From Armillaria gallica (Eukaryota; Basidiomycota; Agaricomycetes; Agaricales; Physalacriaceae): a stretch of 64,000 nt of DNA. The notes beneath the pieces are model-generated. The model had not been told where the DNA came from. It saw nothing but the letters and a program-made list of their open reading frames with translations, and made no database searches. A program made the translations under genes and the position numbers. Below, in pieces: positions 42,670 to 62,790 of the stretch (its first letter is position 1; each line of letters begins with the position of its first letter). The DNA lies in contig JBANDB010000003.1 in assembly GCA_037576215.1 (NCBI GenBank), forward strand, positions 248,001 to 312,000, written 5' to 3'.

Positions 42670-45110
42670 CAATGACACGAATCGTATTGGGTAGAGTCAT
42701 ATGCGGACTAGCTACCACTTGGGTCACCAGGCCAAAGATAGGTGGCTACTTTGTATCTTCGGCGTGCTTCGCTTTGGATATCACCGCCAAGAACTGGGAT
42801 AGCACCCTGGAATTCGCGACATGGAGTGATGTTGACTCCAGGCATCAATCAAACTTGGATAAAGAAGTGATCATATTGTCTCTTTTTGATGAGGAAGACG
42901 CCTGTAGCGTACGTACCGTCCCAGTACCAGCTAGTACCTTGGCGTATCCTTCAGATGGCTAGAAGCAGCAGGCAATAAGTTGATGCCGCCGACACACGGA
43001 CACGAGGGTCGTGTTGATCGCAAACTTATACCGGCACACACCAACACCAAACGCGTCAAGCCTTTCACAGATGTTACGCCATCCGGTATGTTGTGTCATT
43101 ATTAGATCTTTATCTTTCATAAATTGTTCAGTGATAGAACAAACCTTTCATGTAGCATGAGTGATCAGTTATCTACTATTCCCGATCCCAGATCTCACGG
43201 TGCCGAGCTCCGAAGTCGAAGATTCCGGGAACGTGGCTGTGTTAGGGCGAGTAAGGTAAAGGATGGTAGCAGCATCCAGCGGAACTCAGAAGAGTGGGAG
43301 TCGGCAGCATGCTGGACAACAGCCGCAGGAAAAGAAGATAAAGTAAGTAAGATTGAACAATGGTGAGGACTGATAATGCTGAATCTCTGCATGATGCTAA
43401 TGGAGGCCTCCGAGGCGACGCGAGCGGTAGGATGACATTGGCGTCGACCATCTTCGGAGTAGACTATGAGTTAGCTGTGAAACGAAGATGAAAATATCGA
43501 GACACACCCTTTAATTCCCACAACCAACATAATCTTTCAACGAGATGCAAAACGTTTGTTACTTCTGGCACCGTGCACACAAGGAGCAAGATTCTATTAC
43601 CTTTAATCAGATGATACATTGGGTGTCTTGGCATCCAGAATTAATAGGATTGTCAGATTATAAGTCACTGTTTGGAGGTGGGCAGTTCCGCATTCGGAAC
43701 CGTGCTGCTTAGCCGGCGATTTGATGGATAAGAGTGACCCATTCAGTCATTGTCTTTCCCCTTTCCCTCGACGTCCCTGTGACTGTTTTCTTATCGACAG
43801 ACAAAGGACTGCGAGGTTGTTTGGTATTCGAGCTCACATTGTCACCAAGCGAAGGTGCTGATCATTAAATGTCGAGGTGCTTGTCTTTCCAGTCGCCGCT
43901 TTTTAACATCTTTTTATCGTTCTCTTGTTAATGGTATGTATTCGTTGCTTATACCTGCGGCTTTTAGTTAGAATCGTCGTATAAAAGGACTGTACTTGTG
44001 TAGGATACGCTATCTCGTTTGCAACTGATATACAATACCCTTTCCTCTCGCTCATTTCGTGGTCCCGAGCCTCGCGGCTTCAATAGAGGTATGTCACAGC
44101 ATAAGGTTTTCCGACCATTACACTGGGTGTTTTCACCCGAATTTGGAAGAAAAAAGAAGGAGAAAAGAAAATTCCAGAAGGCTCTCGCCCCTTCATCAGT
44201 GTATGCTAAAGCTATCACTATTTCGTACATGTAACCGTTCCGTGTTATTTTTCCGCACTTCGCGCGCCTGAGATTGTATCAATTTCTCACGATCTTAGGG
44301 GCTCGAAACAAGTGTCGAGCATGCAAGTTATACCAAATTGCTGAAAATACAGCACCAGTAAGTCGTGTTCCGATGTATACATATGACGCAAGTAGCTTGT
44401 GCGCTCGAAAAGAGTATCAGGAAACACAAGAAAGGAAAACCAAAAAAGAGAGAAAAGTAGGTGCCAAATATTCATTGTACATGCTCGAAAACAAGTCGAG
44501 AAATTGTGAATTCTGCAGTATATATGTATGATGTATCAGAAAATAGTTGTAGGAGCAAATGAGCTGTGAGGAATCGACGCAAAGACAAAAACAAAGGGGT
44601 GGCAGGTAAGTCCGCTGACAAAGCATGGATAGATAACATTGTTTCCTTCATAACTCGAGAGTGGCATATCCTTCAAATTTTTGGTGAGTTCAGTACAGCT
44701 CATAGCACTCAAATACAAAGCTGCAGAGAGTAAGAGACTTCTGCTACTTGAGGCGAAGCCAAAAGAAAGAAAAAAACGCTATCAATCCCGAAACGGTAAG
44801 TGCACAGCATGGCAGGTAAGTTAGCGTGGGAACCCAGCGTATCAATCGGCATAACCAGCCTGAGCATAACCCCCGGCAGGCAGATCTATACTTGGCGACA
44901 GTCCCGATTTGCGAATTTGAAGATCAGAGTTCAGGTTCGGGAACATCCGAACACTGACAGATCACCTAAGACTCACGTAGCATAGAGGAAGGGAATCAGT
45001 CTACTGGCACACTATGTTCTCTTCAGAACGGATCGGGAAAACTGCTACAAATCAAAATGACAAACCCCGGACGGAGGATCTCGCTGCTTTATCTCCATTC
45101 TCATGGTGCG
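42670..45110. other. Intergenic, no recognised gene
   Basis: Several 60-95 codon frames (42672, 43124, 44019, 44274) lack recognisable domains or splice support. AG-rich and pyrimidine-rich tracts occur near 44150 and 44440. Confidence 0.4.
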
Positions 45111-56639: not shown

Positions 56640-56684
56640 GACGAAATGATGGGTTTACCGCCGGTTTCACTGGGTTCCCACGGC

Positions 56685-56925
56685 AGTTATCTGCCAGTTA
56701 TCTGCCATGCCCATACTGGGCAGGTGGGCCCCACGACTTCAACAATTTATTTTGAGGTCGTTTCTTCTTTGGTCCTCATAAATCTTGTATATATAAATTG
56801 AATATATTCATATAAACCTTGGAGTAAAATTTTGTGGCTCAAAACGCGATGAGGATGACGCTATTCACTCAAGACGCAATTCCCCGCCAAAGTTATCTGC
56901 CATCAGCCCCTATAGTTATCTGCCA
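56685..56925 (+). repeat. Four AGTTATCTGCCA subterminal repeats
   Basis: Exact 12-mers at 56685-56696, 56696-56707, 56891-56902 and 56914-56925, all in the same orientation near the left end. Candidate transposase-binding or promoter elements (inference). Confidence 0.75.
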
Positions 56926-57136
56926 TGAGGCCGAGTTTCGCCCGCACGACCGTTCTTTCTTTACTCCCGTCGCGTATTCTGTCCCTATAGTCGTGTTGCT
57001 TAGCTGCTACTATTGTAGTAACATCTGTGTCAGTCTGGTATGTTATTTTTGTGATATAATGTGGTGCACATGCTGAAAGAACTTCTTTTTATAAATAGCT
57101 CGCATTTTTTTAATTTGAAGCTCTATTTCCTGCAGT

Positions 57137-60100
57137 ATGGCACGTCCAAGCGGTGTGAAGGATGGCCCAAGACCGGAAAATGCTCCAAGGCGAGGACGGC
57201 CACCAAAACCACGAGATATTCCATCCCAGGAGGAAAATGGTCAGTATGTCTCATTCTGGAGTTTAAATATTCTACTCACTGTATGCGACATCTGTAGACT
57301 CGGATGCTGACGACGAATACGAATTTGATGATGAGGAGTACTCAGAGGAGTTTTTGAGGCGTCTGGATAAGGCTGAAAGCGATGCTATAGCCAGTAAGTT
57401 GATTCTCCTTTCAATTTCGGAGTTTTTCATGATTTTCTGGCTGCCTCTTAATGCAGAGCTCAAGCGATTGGAAGCAGAAGCAGACGCCCGCAAGAAACGT
57501 CTTGCAGACCTACAGAAGGCCGCAAATCATCCGCTTAGCTGTACGGACTATTTTTTTTCCGTTGCAACATAGGATACTCATATTCTCCTATAGAACCGTT
57601 CTTTAATCCACTTGCAGGACCCCTCTCTGATGCGGCAAGTGATGAGGATGAGGACCTGGACTCCGAAAACGAAGCCGAGACCCCACGCATCAGTCGCAAT
57701 ACTGGGAATGAGCCAGGGGCACAAAGCCATAACATAAATGACAAACCTGGAGGTATGTCGCACCTTCAAAGTTTCCTTGTTAAAAAATTGACACGTTTTT
57801 CACTAGCGTGGTTCACTAAGCCGAAATATATGCAAGATTGGCTGTACCGGTACTTTGCTACGGTTATACACCCGCTTATCCACAATAAAAATGGCGGCAA
57901 GATCCTGCTTGCACCGCCAACATTCACAGAGTCTGAACCTTATGCCCCGCCAACACTCTGGATCCGTTCTCCGGAACCAGTCATGTCTCTGTCTGTGCAT
58001 CGGTTTGAGCCCACCCTTCTCTTCCGCCCACATGTCTTGCTTTGGCTTGTACATTTCTTTGTCGACATATTATCCTGTCCCAAATGCGGAAAACCACTTG
58101 AAAAGAATGGCGCGCTGCCACCTCGTCGTGTTGTAGACCTTGAAGATTCATTCTACATTGTCGCATGGGCATATTATTGCTGGCAGGGCTGCCAAGCACA
58201 TTTTCATGGGTGGAGCCAGCGTCTTCTAAACTCATTACCCACCTATGTGCGTTTGGCTTTTCCTGCTGTGCTCTCGCACAAAATAGGCTTGTCATGCAAT
58301 GTTGTCAGTACTCTCCATGTTGGCAATCAGCATAAGATGGGACCATCTGGTGTTCGCTCACTACTATTCGAAATGCACACCCGTCGATTCAATGTAATAC
58401 AGCTCCAGTATTTAGAGTCAATCTTTGAGCGGCTTCAGACTAGAGAATCAGCCAATGCTGATTTGCGCAATTACTTTGACGCCTCTATGAAAGTCCCTTC
58501 AATTGGGAATTTCAGCGATGTAGATGGCTATGGTGGCTTCATTCCGGGTGAACGCTATCTTGCCGCCATGCTAAATAAAGCTATTGAACGGGATGAAGCT
58601 GATGCCAACCAGCATACATCTTTACTTGAACCAGACCAGCTGGCTATTGACGACTCACACAAGGTCTGTACTTGGTATATTAGTATCTCTATATTTATCT
58701 AAACCATTTTGTTGCAGGTCAACAAGCATATTGCTAAAGTTGAAGGTGTTAATGTCTTTGGCGCAATGTGGACATGCATGACCTCTCGCTATATCCGGTC
58801 ACAAGCATTGACTCTGACTAAGGCTCATGAAGAACATATTGGTCCACTGACAGGAATCTCACAATCCACAAAGCAATATGGGCACAATAACCCATGTATC
58901 ATTTTTTCAGATGATCCTATAAAGGTAAACTTCTATGATCAACCTTGTATCTTTCTAATGCTGCTGTTAGGACAAGCATCTCATAAATTCTGCATTTCCC
59001 ATGTTATCAAAGAATCTCACACCCATTGCTGAGGCTCATGGTTTGATTCCATTTGAGCTGCCATCAACACTGAGTCCAGTTGTTCTTACTACTGCTATGC
59101 TCATCGAGAGTACTCTGTCATCATTAATGGCTCCACTTGATATTGACAAAGATGCTTCTTTGTGCATTAGCTTTGATGCTGAATGGAATGTGTCAAGGAC
59201 TCTTGGAGTCTCTATCATTCAACTCACACCCCACCAGGACCCACCAGAGATTTTTCTGATACCAGTATGATATTTTTCACAAATGCAACTGCTTTGAATT
59301 TTAATCTTTTATGTTTTTAGATTTATCGCTTTGATAAAAAACTTCTCCCACCATCTCTTCTTCGCTTAATGCTATCCAATCGTGTATTCAAGATAGGCTC
59401 AGGCATCAAGGGAGATATGACACGGCTTAAAAAGCAGTTCTCACAGCTCTCAGGAAAGCCAATCATGACCGTTGATCTTAAAGACTATGCCATCCAGCGA
59501 GGTGTCATTCACCGAAAGGATAGTGGGAGTCTTGATGCATTGGTTGAAAAGACATTAGAGAAATATCTCCCAAAGGAGGATGTGGTTCAGAAGAGTGAGT
59601 GCTGGGAAGATGGCAAGCTCAGCTCTGATCTGATTCAGTATGCTGCAACTGATGTTTTTGCATCCCGCTGCATTTTCGAGAAATTATCAGAGTCACCACT
59701 GCTCAACAATGTCACTATTGATACGCCTGCAGGATCTCGCATAGCTCTTCTTATTCAAGAAGGAGGTGAAATCATCGCATATGGGAAAATTTCTGCAGAC
59801 CAATCTTCACCATTCAAGGGTGTTCGTGTCAAGGTCCCAAATCAAAATCGTGTTGTCATTGACATTGACACCCTTCTCAAACCATCTGCTGTGGCTGTAC
59901 TTCACATTGACTATTCAATAACCAATAGCACAGCATCAAAGAATGGCAGGACCAAGCTAGGTGCATTTACTCTTGGGCAGTTGCAAGAGGCATCAATGTC
60001 ATCAAGCTTTTCGATGGTTACACCAACATCTCTCCTAATATTTGACAATCGTAATGTGGTGCGTTATAGTGACATTATTTTCTTTTTATCTTTGCTCAGT

Positions 60101-62413
60101 GAACATCAGCGTGACATTGAAGCCTTGGAATCTTCTGTCAATACACAGGAACCCATGCCATTTATGGAACCTGGACTAGAATCTGACAGCGAGGAATCAG
60201 ACAATCAATCATATCCTCAACAGCTTCAGGAGGACTTCACAGGCGAGTCAAGTACTTTGGCAGCACAGATGTTGCAAGCCAATTATGAAGCATCAGCTGT
60301 ACCTAGAGGTATGGTTTTTACTTCTGTATATTGAACCATATTCTGATATTAATCATTATTCTCAGGCCAAAAACGTACCCATAATTCAAGCATGCGTTTC
60401 TTGAAGAATACAGATGACTCAGGCTTATCCAAACTTCCTGGTCTTGAATTATTCCACCAAATAATCCAGTCTCCACCTGATTCACAATCAACATATCAAA
60501 CTATTAAAAAGGATATCTTTCATGCATTCCAGATGATTCCGACTCCACGTCACCATGGTGCTTGACCAGAATATCTTCATGAGATGCATGATCATCTACT
60601 TCGATGGGATCCTCTCATCCATGAGAAGGTTGATTGTGTCTGTCAAAAATTCTTCAATCTCACCTTTGACGAAATGCTTGCTCAGAATCCCCGGTTTATT
60701 GAAGAGCGAACACCATGCCATGTTCCACCACCTAGTGTTTTAGTCCCATCTCTGCTGCATGTGTTTCAGACTTTCGGAAAGGCTATTGATGCTAAAACTG
60801 GAGCACCACTATTTTCGAAAAAATCATGGGCAAAGGCATATGCCATACTAGACCTGGCTCATGAGGGATATCTCTCTGATAAGAATTGTACTGTATGAGA
60901 AGGCTGGAATTGATCAATATGGGCTGCAGAAGTGGAGATGTACTCGAGGAACAAATAAGGTTGAAGGTGGTCCACACGGTGATATATACAGGAAATTTGG
61001 TGCTCTCCATGGTATGTGATATGAATCATAGGATAAATTTTCTTCAAATCTGACCACATTATACTACAAAGCTGGTCCCCGTCTCACAGTCAACTGTCTA
61101 ACTGATCACCGAACATGGTACAATCTTCAGGTGAAATTAAATAATGTGCAATGTCTTCTGTAACTAAATTCTTATTGCAGGCTTATGCGCAGCATACATG
61201 CAGCATTGACTGGAACTATCATCATGATCTTGGCCTGATCAATTGAACATCATTTCTTCTGAACTATCTCTCTGATACGGTTAAAGGTGCATTGTCCTAT
61301 TCCGATTGGATCAACGGAGACCTTTATGAGAGAACAGCAGAGCAATTCAGGGTATGCTTGTTTCCAGGTATTACTTGGATTCTTTAAGTCTAAGGATGTG
61401 TGTCTAATATTTCTCACTTGTTAGAGTCATTGCGAACTCGCTTTGGTATGGCATCATACAATGATGAAGCTTCCAAGGCATATAAACTCAATGCAAGTAA
61501 CAACTGGCTGTGACAGTGACAGGGCTTAGCTCTGCCTGTTCTTCCTCCAACCACTCAAGAAGCTCGCCGCTACTTCTTTGCTCAGATACGTATCTTCTCT
61601 GTGAAGGCAAGTGCTGATGGCAAAGGCAGAGTTGATTATGAAGCATTTGCTCAGGAATGGAACCGGACGGCAGATGGAACTGAGCGTGTTTATGTCTCTC
61701 CAGAGGTCCTGGCTGCATATTCAAAATCATGGGAGAAAGCAAACAATATCCAAGCAATGATGGACTTGATGTCTGATGGGCTTGAAGAAGTACATCCCAG
61801 CGGTGAAGTATTTGCAGCTGCAGATCTTCCATTCCCAGATTATTTGACTGGAGATGCGTCGTTCACTCATCCAAGTCAAGGGGTTGTTGAAATAGATTCA
61901 GAACAGTCACTCCCTCTGAATTTGTCAATTTCGACGGCTCCTGCTACTTCACATTCTTCCTGGTTTACTGATACACTAATATCTGCCCACCCCACAAGCA
62001 GTGGCCCACCTCAATCCCCTCGATCCCCTGCACCTATCCCTGCTATATTTGATGAGCTTCCTACAAGCCCTCCTCCTCCAATGCCTGCGTCGCATACTGA
62101 ACCGGCCCAAAACCAGCCACTAGGCAAGCCTCAATTGGATTCCCTGTCCATAGTTGTTAGAAATGGCACTTCCAGCAGCCATCAGCACATGGACATGGAA
62201 AGAGAGAGCAAGAAAAGATGTACCGTACCCACAGAGGAGAGGAAACACTGTAAAATCCGTAGTTGTCGATGCTGTCGCAATCAGACTTGCCCTGGAGGTA
62301 ATGACATTTTGCGGTGTCAGATTGCATGCACTGTACCATGCCGATGGTGCGGGAGACTGGATGAATGTCGGGGCGTTGATGGAGGGAAAAAATGCACAGC
62401 ACCCCGGGCTTAA
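57137..62413 (+). pseudogene. Transposase-like protein with inserted DEDDy 3'-5' exonuclease domain (decayed)
   Basis: Exons 57137-57239, 57298-57393, 57457-57540, about 57594-57752, 57807-58663, 58718-58924, 58971-59264, 59321-60307 and further ones. N-terminus has an AT-hook (RRGRPPKP), then acidic and coiled-coil parts. Then a zinc-ribbon domain with CPKCGKPLEKNG and CWQGCQAHFHGW (like DUF6729). Next come LAIDDSHK (about 58650) and IIFSDDP (58905), which fit first and second DDE acidic residues. An RNase D/WRN-type exonuclease follows: FDAEW, GSGIKGDM and YAATD supply D-E-D-D-Y. After it GTNKVEGG (60945) could supply the DDE Glu. A Cys-rich tail ends at 62413. Lesions: TGA at 60563, frameshift near 60880, TGA at 61244, 61511 and 61517, and a doubtful junction near 57594. 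Confidence 0.8.
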
Positions 62414-62601
62414 ATTAGTGTATGTCAAAGCAGAGATTGAATGACGAGTCAAGCAAATGTGTAGTGATCGAGATCGGCATTTAAATATAATACAAACAAA
62501 CAAACATCGGTAGTTGCCCGATTTGGCACGTGAAATCTTTCTTTTTTTATTCTTTTTCTCCTTTTGGGGCCTCTGATACCCAGTGAAATGGATGGAAAAC
62601 C

Positions 62602-62790
62602 AAATGATGATGGTAGATAAGGATGAAAATAGCCGGAGCTTCGGTAATCAACAAATGGCAGCCAGCAAGCCGGGAGACGGGCCAGGGGCCAGGATGTCAG
62701 CAATTACCATCACCTTCGGATCCATGCCAGCTTCCTCTGTCTGCCAAGGCACTGTCTAACTGATAGGTTGCATCTCTTGTATCAGTTTCA
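62602..62790 (-). promoter_or_regulatory. Promoter half separated from the Argonaute remnant
   Basis: Matches 3280-3105 (for example GGATGAAAAT, AATCAA(C/T)AAATGGCA, GGGAGA(C/T)GGGCC). Its continuation is at 56651-56590 on the other side of the transposon. The TATA box seen in the 3.2-kb copy is not preserved here. Confidence 0.65.

Follow-up and report, generated by a model that had tools for sequence, protein, structure and literature searches.

We analysed a 64,000-nucleotide stretch of Armillaria gallica DNA (contig JBANDB010000003.1, positions 248,001 to 312,000, forward strand; hereafter the window) carrying a 5950-bp transposon with terminal inverted repeats (TIRs), target-site duplications (TSDs) and a predicted transposase gene. 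With a probability of about 0.83, we read it as a TIR transposon of the Dada-type lineage with 8-bp TSDs, encoding a complete Werner-type exonuclease between the second Asp (D2) and the Glu (E) of a likely RNase H-like Asp-Asp-Glu (DDE) core. Its borders and terminal features are as follows.

56652..62601, plus strand: whole element, 5950 bp, with TIRs and an exact 8-bp TSD; a 97% identical full copy elsewhere has a different exact TSD
56644..56651, no strand: left TSD, AAATGATG
62602..62609, no strand: right TSD, AAATGATG
56652..56675, plus strand: left TIR, 24 nucleotides, 19 of 24 paired
62578..62601, minus strand: right TIR, 24 nucleotides
56686..56924, plus strand: span of four exact copies of GTTATCTGCC, starting at 56686, 56697, 56892 and 56915

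The surrounding sequence was scanned with TSD lengths of 5-10 bp combined with TIR scoring. The borders 56652/62601 ranked first, with TIR arms 79% complementary over 24 nucleotides and AAATGATG on both sides, in agreement with an earlier reading of the letters alone (the sequence-only reading), which had taken a 24-bp imperfect TIR and an exact 8-bp duplication as the marks of a mobile unit. GTTATCTGCC occurred four times near the left end both in the window copy and in the 97% identical copy (L012). L013 and three short-copy loci examined also carried it at their left ends, with at most one mismatch; these subterminal repeats are candidate transposase binding sites.

The predicted gene and its motifs, with D1 denoting the first Asp of the triad, are located as follows.

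57137..62413, plus strand: predicted transposase gene, with several introns, broken in the window copy
57953..58462, plus strand: DUF6729 (PF20499), CPKC...YYCWQGC, Pfam E 1.4e-16
58649..58651, plus strand: D1 of the DDE triad (IDDSHK)
58910..58912, plus strand: D2 of the DDE triad (FSDDP)
59175..59183, plus strand: exonuclease motif I, D-x-E (FDAEW)
59414..59416, plus strand: exonuclease motif II, D (GIKGD)
59639..59653, plus strand: exonuclease motif III, Y...D (YAATD)
60512..60523, plus strand: DxxH motif (DIFH), D at 60512-60514 and H at 60521-60523, motif as defined in PMC3706591
60563..60565, plus strand: in-frame TGA stop of the window copy
60963..60965, plus strand: E of the DDE triad (GTNKVEGG), its third catalytic residue, in a different reading frame beyond the frame break near 60882
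62249..62395, plus strand: C-terminal cysteine cluster, read from the sequence

The gene starts with MARPSG...RRGRPPKP, which we take to be AT-hook-like. Its spliced frame from 57620 to 60562 gave an 892-residue product with CPKCG at residue 135, IDDSHK at 325, FSDDP at 393, FDAEW at 467, GIKGD at 525 and YAATD at 604. The PF20499 match bears out the DUF6729-like domain that had been proposed, in which the CPKC...YYCWQGC segment is likely a zinc ribbon; similarly, the exonuclease matched DNA_pol_A_exo1 (PF01612, Pfam E 2.8e-08) with every motif of the complete DEDDy signature present, as had been claimed. The DxxH motif, which the sequence-only reading had not listed, sits between the exonuclease and the final E. 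The window copy is broken twice ahead of GTNKVEGG, by the TGA stop and by the frame break.

Searching with the window protein returned 60 proteins (51 bearing the names of mushroom-forming fungi, 2 from Mucorales and 7 without a name), with an Armillaria nabsnona protein as the best match (89% identity, 83% query coverage). A second search added mainly Mucoromycota and one aphelid, and a third added unnamed metagenome proteins, for a total of 102. Residue conservation was counted among the first 60, using only the proteins that cover each site. The results showed that the DDE triad was kept in 47/49 (D1), 47/52 (D2) and 38/38 (final E), the last of these being consistent with the suggestion that GTNKVEGG could hold the final Glu. 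The exonuclease residues were kept in 46/49 (D), 48/49 (E), 49/50 (D), 56/56 (Y) and 56/56 (D), and DxxH in 41/43 (D) and 42/43 (H). Exceptions, in at most 13 proteins, comprised nine gaps and six substitutions (D2 to E and to G; the first exonuclease D to E and to P; the second exonuclease D to G; the D of DxxH to N). The same residues were present in a wider set of 23 proteins (19 outside the 60), except that P0088 had no believable D1 or D2, P0101 lacked the E region and P0102 lacked both DxxH and E; P0099 carried an insertion inside exonuclease motif I. In total, 79 of the 102 proteins were checked for catalytic residues, many of the rows being related. Motif order and conservation across the family thus support an exonuclease placed between D2 and the final E, as first proposed.

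Because the queries included the exonuclease, relatives without one were under-sampled; none appeared among 14 proteins from a profile search whose reach is limited to relatives that have words in common with the query. Pfam listed an exonuclease for only 2 of these 14, yet all 14 carried the exonuclease residues. Distances in the exonuclease and in the core were correlated (r 0.90, 32 proteins, 0 of 999 permutations). The ratio of nonsynonymous to synonymous substitution rates (dN/dS) between the window and L013 was low, about 0.10 in the exonuclease (161 codons) and 0.06 from DUF6729 to D2 (353 codons), rough values from one pair with dS near saturation. One family member, P0088 from Amoeboaphelidium protococcarum, is a gene model in which a P-type ATPase is fused with the half holding exonuclease and transposase; it is likely a mis-joined gene and still extends the family to aphelids.

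We searched the genome (86 Mb, 28 contigs) for further copies. Eight DUF6729 loci were listed, each followed by an exonuclease whose start lies 1.3-1.8 kb beyond that of the DUF6729 match, and six of them were bordered by TIRs on both sides and by a TSD with 7-8 of 8 positions in agreement, so that gene copies lay mostly within elements of this kind; L013 kept the left TIR, and no ends were found at L016. The full copy at L012, with the TSD CTTCTTAC, is open across both break sites of the window copy but broken elsewhere. At L014, L015 and L017, the exonuclease segment was 28-29% identical to that of the window, the TIRs were different and started with GGC, and the exact 8-bp TSDs were GGTTGGAG, GGAGGAGC and TCGAGTCG, respectively; at L017, an overlapping 10-bp TSD reading scored slightly above the 8-bp one in the border scan. 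In the three families of the genome, the TIRs measured about 24 nucleotides, with 19-20 of 24 paired. A domesticated or host DUF6729-exonuclease gene lying between TIRs by chance would agree with the public annotations (3'-5' exonuclease, Werner Syndrome-like exonuclease or hypothetical), but the borders at six of eight loci refute it for the studied genome unless they are false, and we regard it as extremely improbable.

The C18 copy kept both ends, with the flanks TATAATAG and CATAATAG. It holds an insert of about 1.8 kb inside the element (L011, about 1005-2833). Some 8 kb separate its last matching stretch from its right end, and a reading frame in between looked Copia-like by eye. At L013, the sole candidate for a right end lay 19 kb away with a flank match of just 5/8 and was rejected. 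About 300 bp ahead of where the L013 copy begins on its left, a 78-bp segment (L013 1083-1160) matches the L015 left end at 88% identity, which brings ends of two families close together.

About 130 bp from each end of the element, used as queries, gave at least 40 matches each, and from the 80 end matches listed both ends could be paired for 33 window-family copies. Twenty-eight of the 33 were 0.8-2.3 kb long and are considered non-autonomous because they are only of that length, and the short relatives share about 72 bp of left and about 70 bp of right end sequence. Together with three distant copies, these gave 36 two-ended copies, whose TSDs were exact over 8 bp in 26, exact over 7 bp in 1 and matching at 7/8 in 5. 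As a control, 650 mismatched left/right flank pairs from the first 26 copies yielded a longest flush repeat of 5 bp. Compared position by position, 23 exact TSDs had no strict motif in common; G at the third base before (14/23) and C at the third base after (13/23) look like a mild symmetric preference. Among copies recruited by these very ends, 30/33 left ends began with GG and 31/33 right ends finished with CC. In the second family, 30 genome matches to the left end of L015 shared only about 67-77 bp of that end.

The 8-bp duplications are also usual in hAT and Zisupton elements, according to the parts of PMC12730594 consulted, and could point to a hAT-, P- or KDZ-like element with a captured host exonuclease gene as a passenger. 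However, no hAT, KDZ or Zisupton family appeared in the Pfam lists (profile scans only), and the exonuclease and core stand in one protein in three distinct families of the genome and also in Mucoromycota homologs, which leaves passenger capture very improbable.

The fold of the core was assessed in predicted structures. The AlphaFold model of P0061 places D1 within a strand, D2 immediately behind one and E in a helix, and the strand order fits a b-b-b-a-b RNase H core (block predicted local distance difference test score, pLDDT, 76-94). The exonuclease has the fold and the D, E, D, Y and D residues of the WRN-type DEDDy class; a PDB sequence profile gave only exonucleases and polymerases below E 0.2, and the named matches in a viral fold library were mostly exonucleases and polymerases. 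The DDE-type arrangement first proposed is supported in its motif order and conservation; the RNase H fold is suggested by the strands of P0061 and less so by the E region, which is predicted with low confidence in P0039.

Several observations weigh against our assignment. In the AlphaFold model of P0039, E falls in a stretch with pLDDT below 50 and no helix. Fold search did not confirm the DDE core: VIA-align lists contained no DDE transposase, but they were taken up by exonuclease chains and are therefore uninformative on the core. Pfam on the core gave a weak MULE match in 2/30 members (best E 0.059). At the borders, the left end of neither L015 nor L017 carried GTTATCTGCC, and four of the 36 copies had non-matching flanks (5, 5, 3 and 2 of 8), one of these being the 19-kb pair at L013; since copies were recruited by end matches, truncated ends were under-sampled.

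The placement of an exonuclease inside a transposase, which the sequence-only reading had presented as an unusual design, is not supported as novel. In the parts consulted of PMC3706591 (Kojima & Jurka 2013), Dada-1_LB and Dada-2_LB of Laccaria bicolor and Dada-1_ES of Ectocarpus combine a DDE triad, DxxH, an N-terminal CCCC zinc finger, introns and a DEDDy exonuclease, its four residues all conserved, that follows the second D and precedes DxxH. The element has the same triad, with DxxH after the second D and motifs in order, and the same exonuclease position with its residues kept. Dada-U6_DR has spacings of 68 (D1-D2) and 176 (D2-E) (PMC3706591); here D1-D2 was 69-70 in the named-fungus rows, P0061 and P0080, and 65-67 in P0087 and P0090-P0102, and DxxH-E was 152-160 in rows holding both, with the extra length between D2 and DxxH, as an exonuclease insertion predicts. 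The CPKC...YYCWQGC segment before D1 corresponds to the CCCC finger, with spacing slightly off C389/C394/C429/C432 of Dada-U6_DR, and the C-terminal cluster has Cys where PMC3706591 lists His in the Dada CCHC. Likeness to Dada was judged by described layout and residue spacing.

The terminal features differ. Dada with defined termini are assigned 6-7 bp TSDs and have no TIRs in described families and insertions in RNA genes, according to the parts of PMC3706591 and PMC8869645 consulted, and no termini of exonuclease-bearing Dada were found in the parts of PMC3706591 examined. We scanned 21 of the 36 two-ended sites at both flanks for targets, with small nuclear RNA genes searched in unjoined flanks only. 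Rfam at gathering thresholds showed no RNA family at these 21 insertion sites (unjoined), and ARAGORN, for intronless tRNAs only, showed none in the 21 joined empty sites, giving 0/21 insertions in multicopy small RNA genes. The single Rfam hit near insertions was a tRNA (L057:402-487), about 105 bp from an element starting at 592. An ordinary member of the Dada superfamily, targeting small RNA genes with 6-7 bp TSDs, would account for the protein layout of the Laccaria and Ectocarpus elements and for the D1-D2 spacing; moreover, an 8-bp TSD could not be ruled out for Dada-U1 by its authors (PMC3706591), and Dada elements of fish do not always keep strictly to their targets (PMC8869645). The TIRs, the 8-bp TSDs and the absence of RNA genes at the scanned sites nevertheless make it improbable. 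Judged from sequence, the protein layout is of the exonuclease-bearing Dada type, and we do not file the element as a plain Dada member because it departs from Dada in TSD, TIRs and targets. The enzyme layout has been known since 2013; what differs from described relatives is the TIR ends and the mostly exact 8-bp duplications.

Other known systems were compared as well. The WRN exonuclease (PDB 2e6l / 2fbt) is part of a helicase protein; the domain studied here, with 23-28% identity, is inserted into a transposase. KolobokD (DEDDh) and KolobokE (lambda-exonuclease-like) are likewise DDE transposons with C/DxxH and an exonuclease, but of other exonuclease classes and, within the Kolobok superfamily, with a TTAA-specific 4-bp TSD, as given in the parts of PMC9587614 consulted.

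With respect to mechanism, the enzyme would bind the element ends through the zinc ribbon, AT hook and subterminal repeats, and the DDE core would excise the element and join its 3' ends to the target strands with an 8-bp stagger. The exonuclease may then act on 3' ends left at the donor-site break, or on those of flank intermediates that have been opened, and by resecting them steer repair, leaving the element's own ends untouched. We tentatively prefer this donor-site role, at somewhat less than even odds, over a defined trim or another substrate. Processing of the element's own cleaved 3' ends, thought likely for Dada by Kojima & Jurka (PMC3706591, in part), raised as end trimming by the sequence-only reading and fitting the 3'-5' polarity, appears unlikely: ragged trimming would vary both the GG starts and CC finishes and the mostly flush TSDs, and is disfavoured because the ends are base-exact, although a fixed, defined trim is still compatible and the copies were recruited by these ends. 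Combined with the donor-site role, the data could also describe a separate fungal superfamily beside Dada, with TIRs, 8-bp TSDs, untargeted insertion and an obligate WRN-type exonuclease that chews the donor site while the element's ends stay exact, a reading to which we give somewhat less than even odds.

No termini of the exonuclease-transposase lineage were found in the open-licence literature, a search scope without subscription papers and Repbase; clean borders, a TSD length and a set of non-autonomous copies are now available for it. The borders and short copies make the role of the exonuclease inside the transposase directly testable. For Pfam DUF6729, a function within a transposase becomes likely, and at least some fungal proteins annotated as '3'-5' exonuclease' or 'Werner Syndrome-like exonuclease' are probably transposases. 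The results also suggest that a Dada-type enzyme can do without RNA genes as targets.

Two further matches were observed. At window positions 44105-44128 (minus strand), a lone right-TIR match with 3 mismatches, with no convincing partner end within the window, is perhaps a remnant of another copy. The weakest exonuclease match listed for the genome, C6:1877613-1878152, with no DUF6729 match nearby, is possibly the host's own WRN-like exonuclease gene.

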